Below, piece after piece: positions 18,002-25,881 of a stretch of DNA of 64,000 nt. Below the pieces are notes generated by a model. It did not search any database. It was not told the DNA's origin and saw only the letters and a program-made list of their open reading frames with translations. This DNA is from Acidobacteriota bacterium (GTDB lineage Bacteria; Acidobacteriota; Terriglobia; Acidiferrales; UBA7541): NCBI GenBank assembly GCA_021324935.1, contig JAJPIE010000037.1, positions 124,001 through 188,000 of the forward strand, in the 5' to 3' direction. The translations under genes were made by a program, and so were the position numbers. Every line of letters begins with the position of its first letter. The stretch's first letter is position 1.

Positions 18002-18709
18002 TCAGCTCTTTTTGTCGACAGCGGTTGCCGTATCGGGGTGCTTCACTTCGCCGTAACGCGCCGCTAGCCACTCTCGCACTTCCTTAGGATTGTAGTTAAA
18101 TGGCCCGTTCCCGCCTTTATACGCCACGCGGCCGTCGGCATCGATGATGTAGAGCCGCTCCGGCCACGCTGCGTACGCGTCATTCGCCGCGTTGTTCATC
18201 GGATCGATCCCGAACGGCAATGGATACTTGAACCGCTTCGTGAAATCATTGGCAATCGCCACGCGCTGCGCCAGCGTCTTCGGCTGCGCGTAACACACGT
18301 TGTCCCGGTCCTTCTCGTTCGATTTCATCTGCCATTCGTCGGTGGGATGCGCCTCGCGTACGTAAATGGTCAAAAAATCCGCGCGGTCCTTGTAATCCTC
18401 ATATAGTTGAATGATGTCGCCAACCTGGCGGCGGAAAGGGGGTCAAGTGAAGCTCCCGAAGACCAGCACCAGCGGTTTGCCGCCGATGCGGTCTCGCACG
18501 TGAAACCGCGTTTCTCCATCCAGAGCCACAAGTGTCGAGTCCGGCGCAGCACTGCCTACCTTCAAATCTCCAAGATGCATGTAGGGCAATGCGTAACGCA
18601 CCATTTCCACCGCGTCTTTCGGGCTGCCTGCCATGTAACTGAGCCCTGCGCCCACGCCAACTACCACCACTCCAACTCCCAGCAAGCTCCATTTCAGAAG
18701 CGGTTTCAT
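18002..18709 (-). CDS. Iodothyronine-deiodinase-family selenoprotein with in-frame TGA
   Basis: A reading frame of 235 residues if TGA at 18445-18443 is read as selenocysteine 89. An N-terminal membrane anchor or signal (residues 4-25) precedes a thioredoxin-fold domain. Around the TGA the frame reads FGSFT-U-PPF, then IYVREAHPTDEW, AAWPERLYII and GPFNYNPKEVREWL. These match, in order, the GSxTUPPF, EAHxSDGW, LPERLYII and NYNPEEVR blocks of vertebrate deiodinases, and the frame is open on both sides. Deiodinase-like bacterial proteins exist with Sec or Cys at this position; they are thought to be thiol/selenol redox enzymes of unknown substrate. A short SECIS-like hairpin follows the TGA. A nonsense mutation is less likely given conservation on both sides. 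Confidence 0.85.
18418..18445 (-). promoter_or_regulatory. Candidate bacterial SECIS hairpin next to the in-frame TGA
   Basis: On the - strand, 16 bases after the TGA begins a five-base loop, AGGTT (18426-18422), closed by the four-pair stem CGCC/GGCG (18430-18427 with 18421-18418). Bacterial SECIS elements place a small stem with a G-U containing apical loop at this distance. The stem is short, so this supports but does not prove selenocysteine insertion. Confidence 0.5.
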
Positions 18710-18735
18710 ACCAGCTCCAGTCTCCGAAGGAATGA

Positions 18736-20007: not shown

Positions 20008-20565
20008 TCAGGCCCTCGCTTTGTCGATTAATTCTTCCCAGATGCCCTTGGATTTCAAGATTAGCTCAATCGCTTCTCGCACCGCGCCCCTTCCCGCGTG
20101 CGCCTTCGTCGTATAGTGCGCAATCCTTTTCACGTCGGCCGCTGCATCTCCGACCGCCACCGCCAGCCCTGCACGCTTCATCAGCGGAATATCCGGCAGA
20201 TCGTCCCCGATGAATGCCACCTCCGCGTCGCTCACTCCCGCCTTGGCCAGAATCTCCTCGTACGCCGGCATCTTTAGCGCAATTTTCATATAGATGAATT
20301 CCATTTTCATCTCATGCGCGCGGCGAAGCAGCGCCGCACTCTCGCGGCCTGTGATGCAGCCGGTGCGCAGGCCCGCGGTCCTGGCCAACGTAAGCCCTTG
20401 CCCGTCGTGGGCATCGAAGGTCTTGATTTCCAATGCCGTTCCGTCAGGTTGTGACTGCAGGGTCACGCCGCCGTCGGTCATCGTTCCGTCCACATCCATT
20501 AGGATTACCTGGATGCGGGCGGCGCGTTTTTTCAGTGCTGGAGAAAGCTTTGGGCTGCGCCGCAA
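20008..20565 (-). CDS. kdsC: 3-deoxy-D-manno-octulosonate 8-phosphate phosphatase (KdsC-type HAD)
   Basis: A HAD phosphatase of 185 residues that should release phosphate from Kdo-8-phosphate on the way to CMP-Kdo for lipopolysaccharide. The start is TTG 20565, with a near-perfect AGGAGG five bases upstream. MDVDGTMTDGG holds the nucleophile and acid-base aspartates, GCITGRESAAL is motif II, and GDDLPDIPLMKRAGLAVAVGDA is motif III with the Mg-binding acids. The short, cap-less length is typical of KdsC, which works as a tetramer. kdsD, kdsA and kdsB lie 1-9 kb away on the same strand. Confidence 0.88.
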   Translation of the reverse strand: MRRSPKLSPALKKRAARIQVILMDVDGTMTDGGVTLQSQPDGTALEIKTFDAHDGQGLTLARTAGLRTGCITGRESAALLRRAHEMKMEFIYMKIALKMPAYEEILAKAGVSDAEVAFIGDDLPDIPLMKRAGLAVAVGDAAADVKRIAHYTTKAHAGRGAVREAIELILKSKGIWEELIDKARA

Positions 20566-20664
20566 GAGAGCCTCCTGAAAGACGAATTCCGCATTTTATC
20601 AGGAATGAAGCGTCTTCACGGATCTCGGATGCGCGACGATCCAGCCAGCCTTATATGCAGATAT

Positions 20665-20693
20665 TTGACTTATCGTTAATTCTATGGTAAAAT
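20665..20693 (+). promoter_or_regulatory. Sigma70-type promoter for the dienelactone hydrolase gene
   Basis: TTGACT (20665-20670) and TAAAAT (20688-20693) are separated by 17 bases in an AT-rich patch unusual for this GC-rich segment. Transcription would start near 20700, giving a leader of about 77 bases before the ATG at 20777. Confidence 0.6.
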
Positions 20694-20776
20694 AAAAGAA
20701 GGAACTTCACGCGAAATCCCCGCTGAAGCTCGCTGTCAGGCGTTACGACAAAGATGACCGGAAGGAGAGCCCCTGC

Positions 20777-21499
20777 ATGAAAACCGAGTACGCGAAATAC
20801 CACGACGGTGCTGTGGATTTGACCGGGATGTTCGCTTGGGAGGAAGGCACGGAGACCACGCGACCTGGAATTCTGGTGGTTCACGCCGGCACCGGTTTGG
20901 ATGACCACGCCAAAAACCGCGCGAAGCGCCTTGCGGAGTGGGGCTATGTCGCTTTTGCCTGCGATATGTACGGCGACGGCGTTGCAGGCGACCGCGACAG
21001 GGTGCTGAGTGTCCTGAATGAACTTCGCCACGACCCACCCAATCTCTGTCGGCGCGTTTCTGCTGGCCTCGACGTACTTCGCTCTCATCCCTGCGTTGAT
21101 GGACGCATCGCCGCCATCGGCTACTGTTTCGGGGGTTTCACCGTTCTCGAACTAGCTCGCGGCGGCGCCAATCTTGCCGGTGTCGTCAGCGTTCACGGAA
21201 CGCTCTCGACCTCAAAACCGGCTCCACGGGATCAAATCAAAGCAAAAATTCTCGCCTGTTGCGGCGCCCTCGATCCCCACGTTCCCATGACCCAGGTTTC
21301 CGCATTCATTGACGAAATGAACGAGTCTGGCGCCGACTGGCAAATGGCCATCTATGGTGGCGCCAAACACGGCTTCGCGCACGAAAACGGCCCCAAACTC
21401 CCCGGCGTCGAATACCACGCCTTGGCGGACTTCCGGTCCAGCCAGCTAATCCACGATTTCTTCCGCGAACTGTTTAGCCCCTCGGAATGCGCTGCCTAA
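20777..21499 (+). CDS. Dienelactone hydrolase family alpha/beta hydrolase
   Basis: A soluble alpha/beta hydrolase of 240 residues. The nucleophile elbow GYCFGG carries a cysteine, and GALDPHVP and GAKHGF supply the Asp and His, giving the Cys-Asp-His triad of dienelactone hydrolases. Classical members open the lactone ring in chloroaromatic breakdown, but most genomic relatives have unknown ester or lactone substrates. A ribosome site, GGAAGGAGAG, precedes the ATG, and a good promoter lies about 80 bases upstream. It is a single gene between kdsC and kdsD, facing the latter, with a perfect hairpin after it. Confidence 0.85.
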   Translation: MKTEYAKYHDGAVDLTGMFAWEEGTETTRPGILVVHAGTGLDDHAKNRAKRLAEWGYVAFACDMYGDGVAGDRDRVLSVLNELRHDPPNLCRRVSAGLDVLRSHPCVDGRIAAIGYCFGGFTVLELARGGANLAGVVSVHGTLSTSKPAPRDQIKAKILACCGALDPHVPMTQVSAFIDEMNESGADWQMAIYGGAKHGFAHENGPKLPGVEYHALADFRSSQLIHDFFRELFSPSECAA

Positions 21500-21572
21500 A
21501 CGTCACAGGGCCGGGGTCCGCCCATCCGGCATCGGGCACAGGCTTCCGCCTGCGATTCTTGCTCCATCATGA

Positions 21573-21597
21573 GTGGCACAGGCCAAGCCTGTGCCAC
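21573..21597. repeat. Perfect intergenic hairpin between convergent genes
   Basis: Eleven-base arms GTGGCACAGGC (21573-21583) and GCCTGTGCCAC (21587-21597) enclose CAA. The hairpin lies 74 bases after the hydrolase stop and eight bases before the kdsD stop, the place of a bidirectional terminator, though no T-run follows. A second imperfect repeat with GCACAGGC precedes it at about 21537, which suggests a REP-like element. Confidence 0.6.
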
Positions 21598-21604
21598 GCT
21601 CCCA

Positions 21605-22564
21605 TCAAATTAGCTCTAGCGTCCACAAATCATGCAAATGAACCACGCCCAAAACCTTCCGGGCCTCATCCACTACCACCACCGACGTAATCTTCTTCTT
21701 CTCCATCAAATTCAGCGCCTCGCTGGCGAGCACGTGCGGCCCCAGCGTCTGCGGGTTTTTCATCATGCAATCGCCAGCCCTCATCGAAAGCGCCGCACCA
21801 GCATGCTTCTCCATCAGTCGTCGCAAATCCCCATCCGTCAAAATTCCTGCCAGGGTTCCATCTTTCGCCGTCACGGTGGTCATGCCCAATTTCTTCGCGG
21901 ACATTTCATGAAACGTAGCCGGCATCGGCGTTTCCGGCGACACCCGCGGCAGCGCATCTCCCGCGTGCATCAGATGCTCGACGCGCAATAATTTTTTTCC
22001 CAGCCTCCCGGCCGGATGCAGGGCCGCAAAATCATCCGGCTGAAAGCCGCGGCGTTCCAGCAACGAGATGGCCAGCGCATCGCCCACGGCCATGGCAACT
22101 GCTGTGCTCGCCGTCGGCGCCAGGTTCAGCGAACACGCCTCTTCCTTCACGCTGACGTTGAGCACCACCTCGCTCGCCTCTGCCAGTGTCGATTTCAAAT
22201 TCCCCGTCAGCGTCACAATTGGAATTTCCAGTCGCTTCAGTGCCTCGAGTAAGTTCACAATCTCTTGCGTCTCTCCCCCATACGTGATCGCCAGAAGCGC
22301 GTCTCCCCGCGCCAGCATTCCCAGATCGCCGTGCAACGCCTCCGCGGGATGCAGAAAAAATGAAGGCGTGCCAGTACTCGACAATGTGGCGGATACTTTT
22401 CGCCCCACCAGCCCGGACTTGCCCATCCCCGTCACCACCACGCGGCCCTTGCACGCAAACAGCAAATCCACGGCTCGTTCAAACGACGCATCCAGACGTG
22501 CCAGCACCTCCTGAATCGCCTGCGCTTCGATCCGAAGCACGCGCCGCGCCGATTCCAGGCTCAT
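21605..22564 (-). CDS. kdsD: Arabinose-5-phosphate isomerase (KdsD/KpsF)
   Basis: A cytoplasmic isomerase of 319 residues that turns ribulose-5-phosphate into arabinose-5-phosphate, the first step to Kdo. The SIS domain (about residues 35-170) shows VVVTGMGKSGLVGRK, SSTGTPSFFLHPAEALHGDLG and ITYGGETQEI, and two CBS motifs fill the C-terminal 120 residues. The start is ATG 22564, which overlaps the kdsA stop as ATGA and implies translational coupling; the ATG at 22576 would sit within kdsA. It forms an operon kdsA-kdsD supplying and using arabinose-5-phosphate. Confidence 0.93.
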   Translation of the reverse strand: MSLESARRVLRIEAQAIQEVLARLDASFERAVDLLFACKGRVVVTGMGKSGLVGRKVSATLSSTGTPSFFLHPAEALHGDLGMLARGDALLAITYGGETQEIVNLLEALKRLEIPIVTLTGNLKSTLAEASEVVLNVSVKEEACSLNLAPTASTAVAMAVGDALAISLLERRGFQPDDFAALHPAGRLGKKLLRVEHLMHAGDALPRVSPETPMPATFHEMSAKKLGMTTVTAKDGTLAGILTDGDLRRLMEKHAGAALSMRAGDCMMKNPQTLGPHVLASEALNLMEKKKITSVVVVDEARKVLGVVHLHDLWTLELI

Positions 22565-23400
22565 GCGTTGCTCCATCGGCGCATCAGCGCGGAAAGGTCC
22601 TTCAAGCGCGCAAGCAATTGCGGGAGCTGGGCCAGCGGCAGGGCATTCGGCCCATCGGAAAGCGCCGCTGCGGGATTGTCGTGCGTCTCCAGAAAAATTC
22701 CATCCACGCCCGCGGCCACACCCGCGCGCGCCAGCGGTTCGATGAACTCCGGCTGCCCGCCGCTCGCGTGACCTTGCCCGCCGGGGAGTTGCACCGAATG
22801 GGTCACGTCATACACCACGGGATAACCGAGCTTGGCCATCACCGGGAAACTGCGCATGTCCACAACCAGGTTGTTGTAGCCGAAGCTCGTCCCGCGCTCG
22901 GTCAAAATGATGTTCTGGTTCCCGGCGGCCGCGATCTTTTCCGCCACGTTGCTCATGTCCCACGGCGAAAGAAATTGCGCCTTCTTCACATTCACGATCC
23001 GACCCGTCTTTGCCGCCGCCGTCAGCAAATCCGTCTGCCGCGAAAGAAACGCCGGAATTTGCAGAATGTCCGCGACCTCCGCCGCCGGCGACGCTTGCGA
23101 GGCCTCGTGAATGTCCGTGAGTATCGGCGCGTGCAGATCCGACTTGATCCTCCGCAGAATCCGAAGCCCTTCCGTCAGCCCTGGCCCGCGATACGCCTTC
23201 GTCGACGACCGGTTCGCCTTGTCGTAAGATGCCTTGAAAATGTAAGGCATACCGGCATCTGCCGCGATCTCCGCCACGCGCTCCGCCAGCGACCGCGCGT
23301 GCGCCTCAGACTCGATCACACACGGCCCCGCGATCAAAAAGAGCGGATTCCCTCCGCCCAACCGCAAACTCCCCAGCTGAATCTCTCGCGTCTTTGTCAT
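22561..23400 (-). CDS. kdsA: 3-deoxy-8-phosphooctulonate synthase (Kdo-8-P synthase)
   Basis: A TIM-barrel aldolase of 279 residues that condenses phosphoenolpyruvate with arabinose-5-phosphate to Kdo-8-phosphate. IAGPCVIESE near residues 24-31 carries Cys27, the ligand that marks the metal-dependent class, in contrast to the Asn found in E. coli. FKASYDKANRSS and YDVTHSVQLPGG are the substrate-site loops, the latter with the metal-binding His. Length is normal. The stop overlaps the kdsD start, so the two are translated together. Confidence 0.94.
   Translation of the reverse strand: MTKTREIQLGSLRLGGGNPLFLIAGPCVIESEAHARSLAERVAEIAADAGMPYIFKASYDKANRSSTKAYRGPGLTEGLRILRRIKSDLHAPILTDIHEASQASPAAEVADILQIPAFLSRQTDLLTAAAKTGRIVNVKKAQFLSPWDMSNVAEKIAAAGNQNIILTERGTSFGYNNLVVDMRSFPVMAKLGYPVVYDVTHSVQLPGGQGHASGGQPEFIEPLARAGVAAGVDGIFLETHDNPAAALSDGPNALPLAQLPQLLARLKDLSALMRRWSNA

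Positions 23401-24171: not shown

Positions 24172-25881
<1,710 letters not shown>

Follow-up and report, generated by a model that had tools for sequence, protein, structure and literature searches.

Two neighbouring frames on the minus strand of the window (the whole stretch of DNA that was analysed, 64 kb long) almost certainly form one selenoprotein gene of the deiodinase family (PF00837), in which selenocysteine is predicted at the TGA at 18445-18443. The host is a soil acidobacterium, and the interrupted gene is most likely read through with selenocysteine. Frames 18709-18443 and 18442-18002 proved to be a single frame split solely by this TGA, and both PF00837 and the deiodinases of the PDB matched across it, which upholds the reading of the initial annotation that the two frames are one gene. 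The conserved deiodinase blocks FGSFT-U-PPF, EAHPTDEW, LYIIDADG and NYNPKEVR, reported there to lie before and after the TGA in order and in frame, were all present in this order in the 235-residue readthrough translation. When the 64-kb window was scanned for TGA codons with coding-like flanks on both sides, eight candidates were obtained, among which the deiodinase-like gene alone was judged a convincing single gene. The features of the locus are collected in Table 1.

Table 1. Positions of the predicted features of the deiodinase-like selenoprotein gene in the window
Feature	Position	Strand	Basis and details
Complete CDS of the predicted deiodinase-like selenoprotein	18002..18709	-	Start ATG 18709; 235 codons, counting the Sec codon; terminated by its own TGA 18004-18002; translation with TGA = U
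In-frame TGA, predicted selenocysteine 89, catalytic residue (Sec170 of mouse DIO3)	18443..18445	-	Aligned to the catalytic Cys(Sec) of DIO2/DIO3; TGA at the same place in the site-spanning homologues of the order
Core of the predicted bacterial SECIS hairpin: CGCCA stem, GGU apical loop, UGGCG stem	18418..18430	-	Covariation, synonymous recodings, synonymous divergence
GGAG, probable ribosome binding site, 5 bases before ATG	18715..18718	-	Sequence
N-terminal hydrophobic helix (residues 3-27), probable membrane anchor	18629..18703	-	AlphaFold2 helix 3-27; hydrophobic composition
Codon of Cys139, the protein's sole cysteine, candidate resolving thiol	18293..18295	-	Present in 39/39 proteins of the branch

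The PF00837 (T4_deiodinase) profile matched residues 49-216, across the TGA, at 1e-42 (146.5 bits; curated cut-off 27), and the TGA aligned to the catalytic residue of DIO2 and DIO3, which confirmed the assignment to the deiodinase family. Matches to the AhpC/TSA and Redoxin families of Pfam were weak. The NCBIfam model NF038285 (deiodinase family protein) gave 197 bits, below its cut-off of 250, with only the C-terminal part of the 347-position model matched. Among PDB sequences the strong matches were mouse DIO2 and DIO3 only, which matched across the TGA at 5.7e-28 and 6.6e-27. A search of PHROGs gave no match, and a plasmid collection yielded one remote match (26% identity) from Mycolicibacterium, already annotated as 'deiodinase-like protein'. 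An AlphaFold2 model built from an alignment of 37 homologues (mean pLDDT 91.1, about 78, i.e. moderate, in the loop carrying Cys139) consisted of a hydrophobic helix (3-27), a second helix and a thioredoxin-fold domain. The best structural matches to this model were DIO2 (Z 23.0) and DIO3 (Z 22.2), followed by a thiol:disulfide interchange protein at Z 16.2.

A deiodinase-like homologue was detected in 45 of the 95 genomes of the order. The site-spanning matches of the order carry one TGA, which in the 30 extracted loci falls on the same residue, FGS(F/Y)T-U-PPF, and no sense codon was found at this site among the homologues found in these 45 genomes. Relatives with a sense codon and unconserved flanks, which the initial annotation had named as the sign of a recent nonsense mutation, were thus not found in the order. 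In a phylum-wide sample, PF00837 proteins occurred in 28 of 396 genomes, the closer ones having TGA and eight more distant ones Cys; in every relative, the residue aligned to position 89 is Sec or Cys. For the 134 codons past the TGA, pN/pS between the window gene and four gapless relatives was 0.12-0.15, indicating purifying selection. With six relatives, the first 42 codons after the TGA gave 0.07-0.13, lower than the 0.21-0.34 obtained before it. Some genomes of the order (G039 at C297:1441-1956, G034, G035, G061 and G093) encode another Sec deiodinase-like protein that is more distant (about 42% identity) and in G039 stands alongside the closer one. The same gene with the same neighbours as in the acidobacterial loci was also seen in L069 (CAJCHZ010000056.1), a contig titled Betaproteobacteria; the label of this assembly is probably wrong.

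The components needed for selenocysteine insertion were looked for by family searches in the host assembly (4.5 Mb, 95 contigs, 91% complete); nearly all of its close named relatives are MAGs of Acidobacteria, several of which carry the label gp2 or Candidatus Acidoferrales. The search for selA, selB, selC and selD, proposed with the initial annotation, found all four: selA at 3.4e-165, selB at 4.3e-110, selD at 7.1e-106 and a tRNA-Sec with anticodon UCA (ARAGORN: tca) at C47:195095-195189 (+; L009:1501-1599), on the same contig about 7 kb past the end of the window. In the order, selB was detected in 83 of 95 genomes, and in 42 of the 45 having the deiodinase-like gene; the three exceptions are only 55-77% complete. 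The selD gene of the host (L017:1501-2460 and just upstream; C46:202439-203398, minus strand) has an in-frame TGA near the N-terminus, KAAG-U-AAKLSPG. Because of this TGA, SelD (selenophosphate synthetase), a well-known Sec family, is a second candidate selenoprotein of the genome.

In the hairpin that follows the TGA, a 5-bp stem (CGCCA/UGGCG) closes a GGU loop, which is separated from the TGA by 17 nt. The initial annotation had placed such a hairpin, with its GGU-containing loop, 16 bases after the TGA: hairpin and loop were found as described, but the stem starts at the 16th base only if counted from the T of the TGA, and 12 bases lie between. The published bSECIS model allows a stem of 4-16 bp, a loop of 3-9 nt that has a G within its first two positions and, in most cases, G or U next to it, a spacing of 16-37 nt between UGA and loop, and a folding energy limit of -7.5 kcal/mol (PMC13188914). 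The window hairpin lies within the published stem, loop and spacing ranges; its energy, -6.8 kcal/mol in 46 nt and -8.9 in 61 nt, straddles the limit depending on the stretch folded. As a single sequence the window hairpin was not significant (p = 0.11 against synonymous recodings, z from -0.30 to 0.85), and Rfam gave nothing at gathering thresholds in the window, with three chance-level matches far below cut-off around the gene (E up to 10).

Support for the hairpin came from the relatives. A hairpin with a GGU or GGC loop beat synonymous recodings at p<0.05 in 30 of 56 distinct homologues, where about three are expected by chance, the relatives not being independent of each other. The loop occurs in two main registers, about +20 or about +24 from the T of the TGA, and in both the covariation exceeded that of all 500 shuffles and of all slid controls. 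Since the covariation groups were picked by loop register after inspecting the folds, these scores lean towards structure. The profile of synonymous divergence is independent of both folding and register grouping: in the sequences of the order, synonymous differences were 0.00 at codons +5 and +6 and 0.24 at +8 and +9, compared with roughly 0.4-0.7 at most other codons, and these codons of low divergence are the codons of the hairpin. Taking together the covariation in the relatives, the recoding test and the collapse of synonymous variation at the hairpin codons, we take the predicted hairpin to be a real bSECIS, so that the SECIS reading of the initial annotation held in the relatives, the window sequence folded alone being uninformative. 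The two registers, some 4 nt apart, were seen in closely related genes of one genus (alignments A1 and A2; L037, L042-L047 and L049 versus L020-L036). Different pairing partners are used there within the same coding stretch, and the RNA element shifts while the protein barely changes.

These observations bear on three other explanations of the interrupted frame. That one in-frame stop is all that separates the two halves would be compatible with a recent nonsense mutation, or with a sequencing or assembly error, making the locus a pseudogene or an artefact. However, the same TGA recurs in independent assemblies across the order and beyond, and in the order it is never replaced by a sense codon. 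Since the TGA is conserved and the codons after it are under strong purifying selection, a recent nonsense mutation was excluded, and the probability left to this explanation as a whole is negligible. An in-frame TGA inside a conserved gene would be expected equally if TGA were reassigned to a standard amino acid throughout the genome, without selenium. Yet the gene itself ends at a TGA just past the conserved domain, the genome has the complete four-part Sec pathway, every relative has Sec or Cys at the aligned position, and the codon is followed by a SECIS hairpin, which leaves next to no room for reassignment. Termination competes with selenocysteine insertion at any Sec-UGA, and translation might normally end at the TGA to give an 88-residue anchor fragment, the downstream frame being translated separately or not at all. 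This is very improbable: the fragment would be devoid of the catalytic residue and most of the domain, and the first possible downstream start, TTG 18373, comes after conserved coding sequence (PPFRR to ADFL) that is under purifying selection.

Reading the TGA as selenocysteine, the catalytic region can be compared with that of DIO3. In DIO3 numbering (window residues in parentheses), Ser167 (S86), Thr169 (T88), Sec170 (U89), Tyr197 (Y116), Glu200 (E119), His202 (H121), Asp205 (D124), Trp207 (W126), Gln218 (Q142), Arg225 (R149) and Arg260 (R185) are kept. Replaced are the proximal Cys168 (F87), His219 (P143), Phe258 (P183) and Arg275 (N201), the last of which itself differs among DIO1-3; the distal Cys239 has no cysteine counterpart in the window protein. 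In animal deiodinases, activity or the anchoring of the omega loop depends on the Ser, Thr, Tyr and Glu of this set, and in DIO1 the proximal Cys acts as resolving thiol (PMC7506546, PMC11592359, PMC9141512). His219 and Arg275 were linked to thyronine binding, and Phe258 gates the Sec (PMC7506546, PMC11592359). As judged from the alignment, the deiodinase catalytic network is intact while the thyronine-linked residues and the proximal and distal cysteines are replaced, which is a new detail, as is the retention of Cys139 in the branch. The replacement of His219, Phe258 and Arg275 by Pro143, Pro183 and Asn201 suggests that the substrate is not an iodothyronine.

In most of the acidobacteriotal Sec homologues the catalytic region contains the Sec and one cysteine at a branch-specific position. 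In the branch of the window gene, 39 of 39 proteins have Cys139, among them L084-L087, which come from other families of the phylum, and two of the 39 have one extra Cys. Cys139 is absent where another branch-specific Cys exists: L089, L093 and L096 have a Cys at 87, the animal proximal position, and L090, L091, L092, L094, L095, L097, L098, L104 and L105 at 156 or 157. L088, L108, L110, L111 and L112 fit none of the positions 139, 87 and 156/157. Across the homologues L020-L112 the candidate resolving thiol thus appears to have moved between branches. The positional counterpart of Cys139 in DIO3 is Val215, which lies at the omega-loop neck described in PMC7506546. Because Cys139 is conserved in the branch and located at this neck, a selenenylsulfide between Sec89 and Cys139 is a reasonable candidate step, and we give Cys139 an even chance of being the resolving thiol.

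We propose that the protein is a membrane-anchored selenol reductase with a non-thyronine substrate, in which Cys139 may serve as resolving thiol. On the comparative evidence, SelB and the Sec-tRNA(UCA) would read the TGA as selenocysteine under the direction of the hairpin. Sec89 would be the nucleophile in the thioredoxin-fold domain, with Ser86, Thr88, Tyr116, Glu119, His121 and Trp126 forming, by alignment, the anchor and proton-relay set that animal deiodinases have. With the protein held in the membrane by helix 3-27, Sec89 might take a soft electrophilic atom, either a halogen or the oxygen of a peroxide, from a small substrate other than an iodothyronine. Cys139, located at the omega-loop neck, could then resolve the oxidised selenium, and a cellular thiol system could recycle the selenenylsulfide.

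Halogen and peroxide oxygen appear about equally plausible as the electrophile. Dehalogenation-type chemistry is a tentative assignment, with a probability somewhat short of even. That the selenoprotein of PF00837 has peroxidase or thiol-disulfide reductase activity, in the manner of peroxiredoxins or ResA, in place of deiodinase-type halogen removal, comes close to an even chance. The replaced thyronine-linked residues would fit such an activity, as would the weak AhpC/TSA and Redoxin matches and the thiol-disulfide oxidoreductases and 1-Cys peroxiredoxins that come next among the structural matches; a redox role was also suggested by the authors who described the bacterial family in 2005 (PMC1088965). 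Against it, the full deiodinase set of Ser-Thr-Sec, Tyr, Glu, His and Trp, EAHPxDxW block included, is kept, a CxxC-type motif is absent, and the deiodinases stand 6 Z units above any other fold. Within our proposal of a selenol reductase, a more specific version is conceivable but unlikely: the branch would be a dehalogenating selenoenzyme for environmental halogenated aromatics, with the resolving thiol relocated to Cys139 and sister branches using 87 or 156/157. If true, one selenium chemistry would operate with a resolving cysteine that relocates across branches.

Most loci of the genus keep the order pyrophosphatase - selenoprotein gene - pseudouridine synthase. In the more distant loci L075, L077, L079 and L080 none of the window's neighbour genes was found beside the selenoprotein gene, and the neighbourhood was therefore rejected as a clue to function. 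Because the arrangement was not found in these loci, we read it as shared ancestry around housekeeping genes. A KDO-type block at 20011-23400 (-) with 24175-25860 (-) of the window, comprising DAHP_synth_1 (KdsA-like), SIS-CBS (KdsD/KpsF-like) and HAD hydrolase (KdsC-like) genes, adjoins CTP synthase; most loci of the genus retain this block upstream of their selenoprotein gene. In the tree, mouse DIO2/3 fell inside the group of 45 rows that contains the window gene (support 97/95); their branch was very long (2.22), and the bacteria sampled were Acidobacteriota only. An origin of animal deiodinases from the acidobacterial branch was considered and is not claimed, in view of this branch length and sampling.

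Bacterial Sec and Cys deiodinase-like proteins with bSECIS elements were reported in 2005 from the Sargasso Sea, their function being left open (PMC1088965), and such selenoproteins were later listed in the GOS set (PMC2398784) as well as in reviews (PMC9312934, PMC13188914). The family has thus been known in bacteria since 2005, to which the acidobacterial locus adds a member, and the locus is less novel than the initial annotation implied. A survey from 2006 listed four selenoproteins of three families in Acidobacteria, the deiodinase being unmentioned (PMC1794560), and our literature search for deiodinase, Acidobacteria and selenocysteine found no paper. Since automatic gene callers would probably cut such genes short or break them in two, a selenoenzyme that almost half of the genomes sampled from a soil order carry may be under-reported. 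With the catalytic set intact and the thyronine-linked residues and partner cysteines replaced, the acidobacterial proteins allow the role of deiodinase chemistry outside animals to be addressed directly. They also bear on which thiol recycles the selenium, a question made testable by the three alternative positions of the candidate resolving cysteine in sister branches.

The window protein shares with the bacterial deiodinase-like selenoproteins described before the PF00837 domain, Sec at the same catalytic position and, immediately behind the TGA, a bSECIS whose small apical loop contains a G, and Cys homologues exist elsewhere in bacteria. The earlier proteins came from marine metagenomes, whereas those studied here belong to soil Acidobacteriota. 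UxxC is given as the deiodinase-like motif in PMC9312934 and PMC13188914, and the GOS paper (PMC2398784) gives no motif. In contrast to UxxC, a Cys three residues after the Sec is absent here: the window gene has UPPF and the extracted Sec homologues UPPF or UPPY, the candidate resolving thiol being Cys139. The UxxC table entry of the two reviews may be mistaken or may concern another branch.

Animal DIO1-DIO3 (mouse DIO2 9h48 and DIO3 4tr3) have the same fold, 34-38% identity over about 172 aligned residues, the Ser-x-Thr-Sec-Pro-Pro-Phe site, the residues Tyr197, Glu200, His202, Trp207, Arg225 and Arg260 and an N-terminal hydrophobic helix in common with the window protein. They differ from it in the omega-loop sequence and in Cys168, His219, Phe258, Arg275 and the distal Cys239, and the window gene has a bacterial SECIS inside its coding region. 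ResA, which is membrane-anchored, and the other ResA-type thiol-disulfide oxidoreductases, like the 1-Cys peroxiredoxins (AhpE), resemble the window protein in the thioredoxin fold and in having the reactive chalcogen where the first helix begins; their match is weaker (Z about 15-16, 16-22% identity), and they lie outside the deiodinase sequence family.
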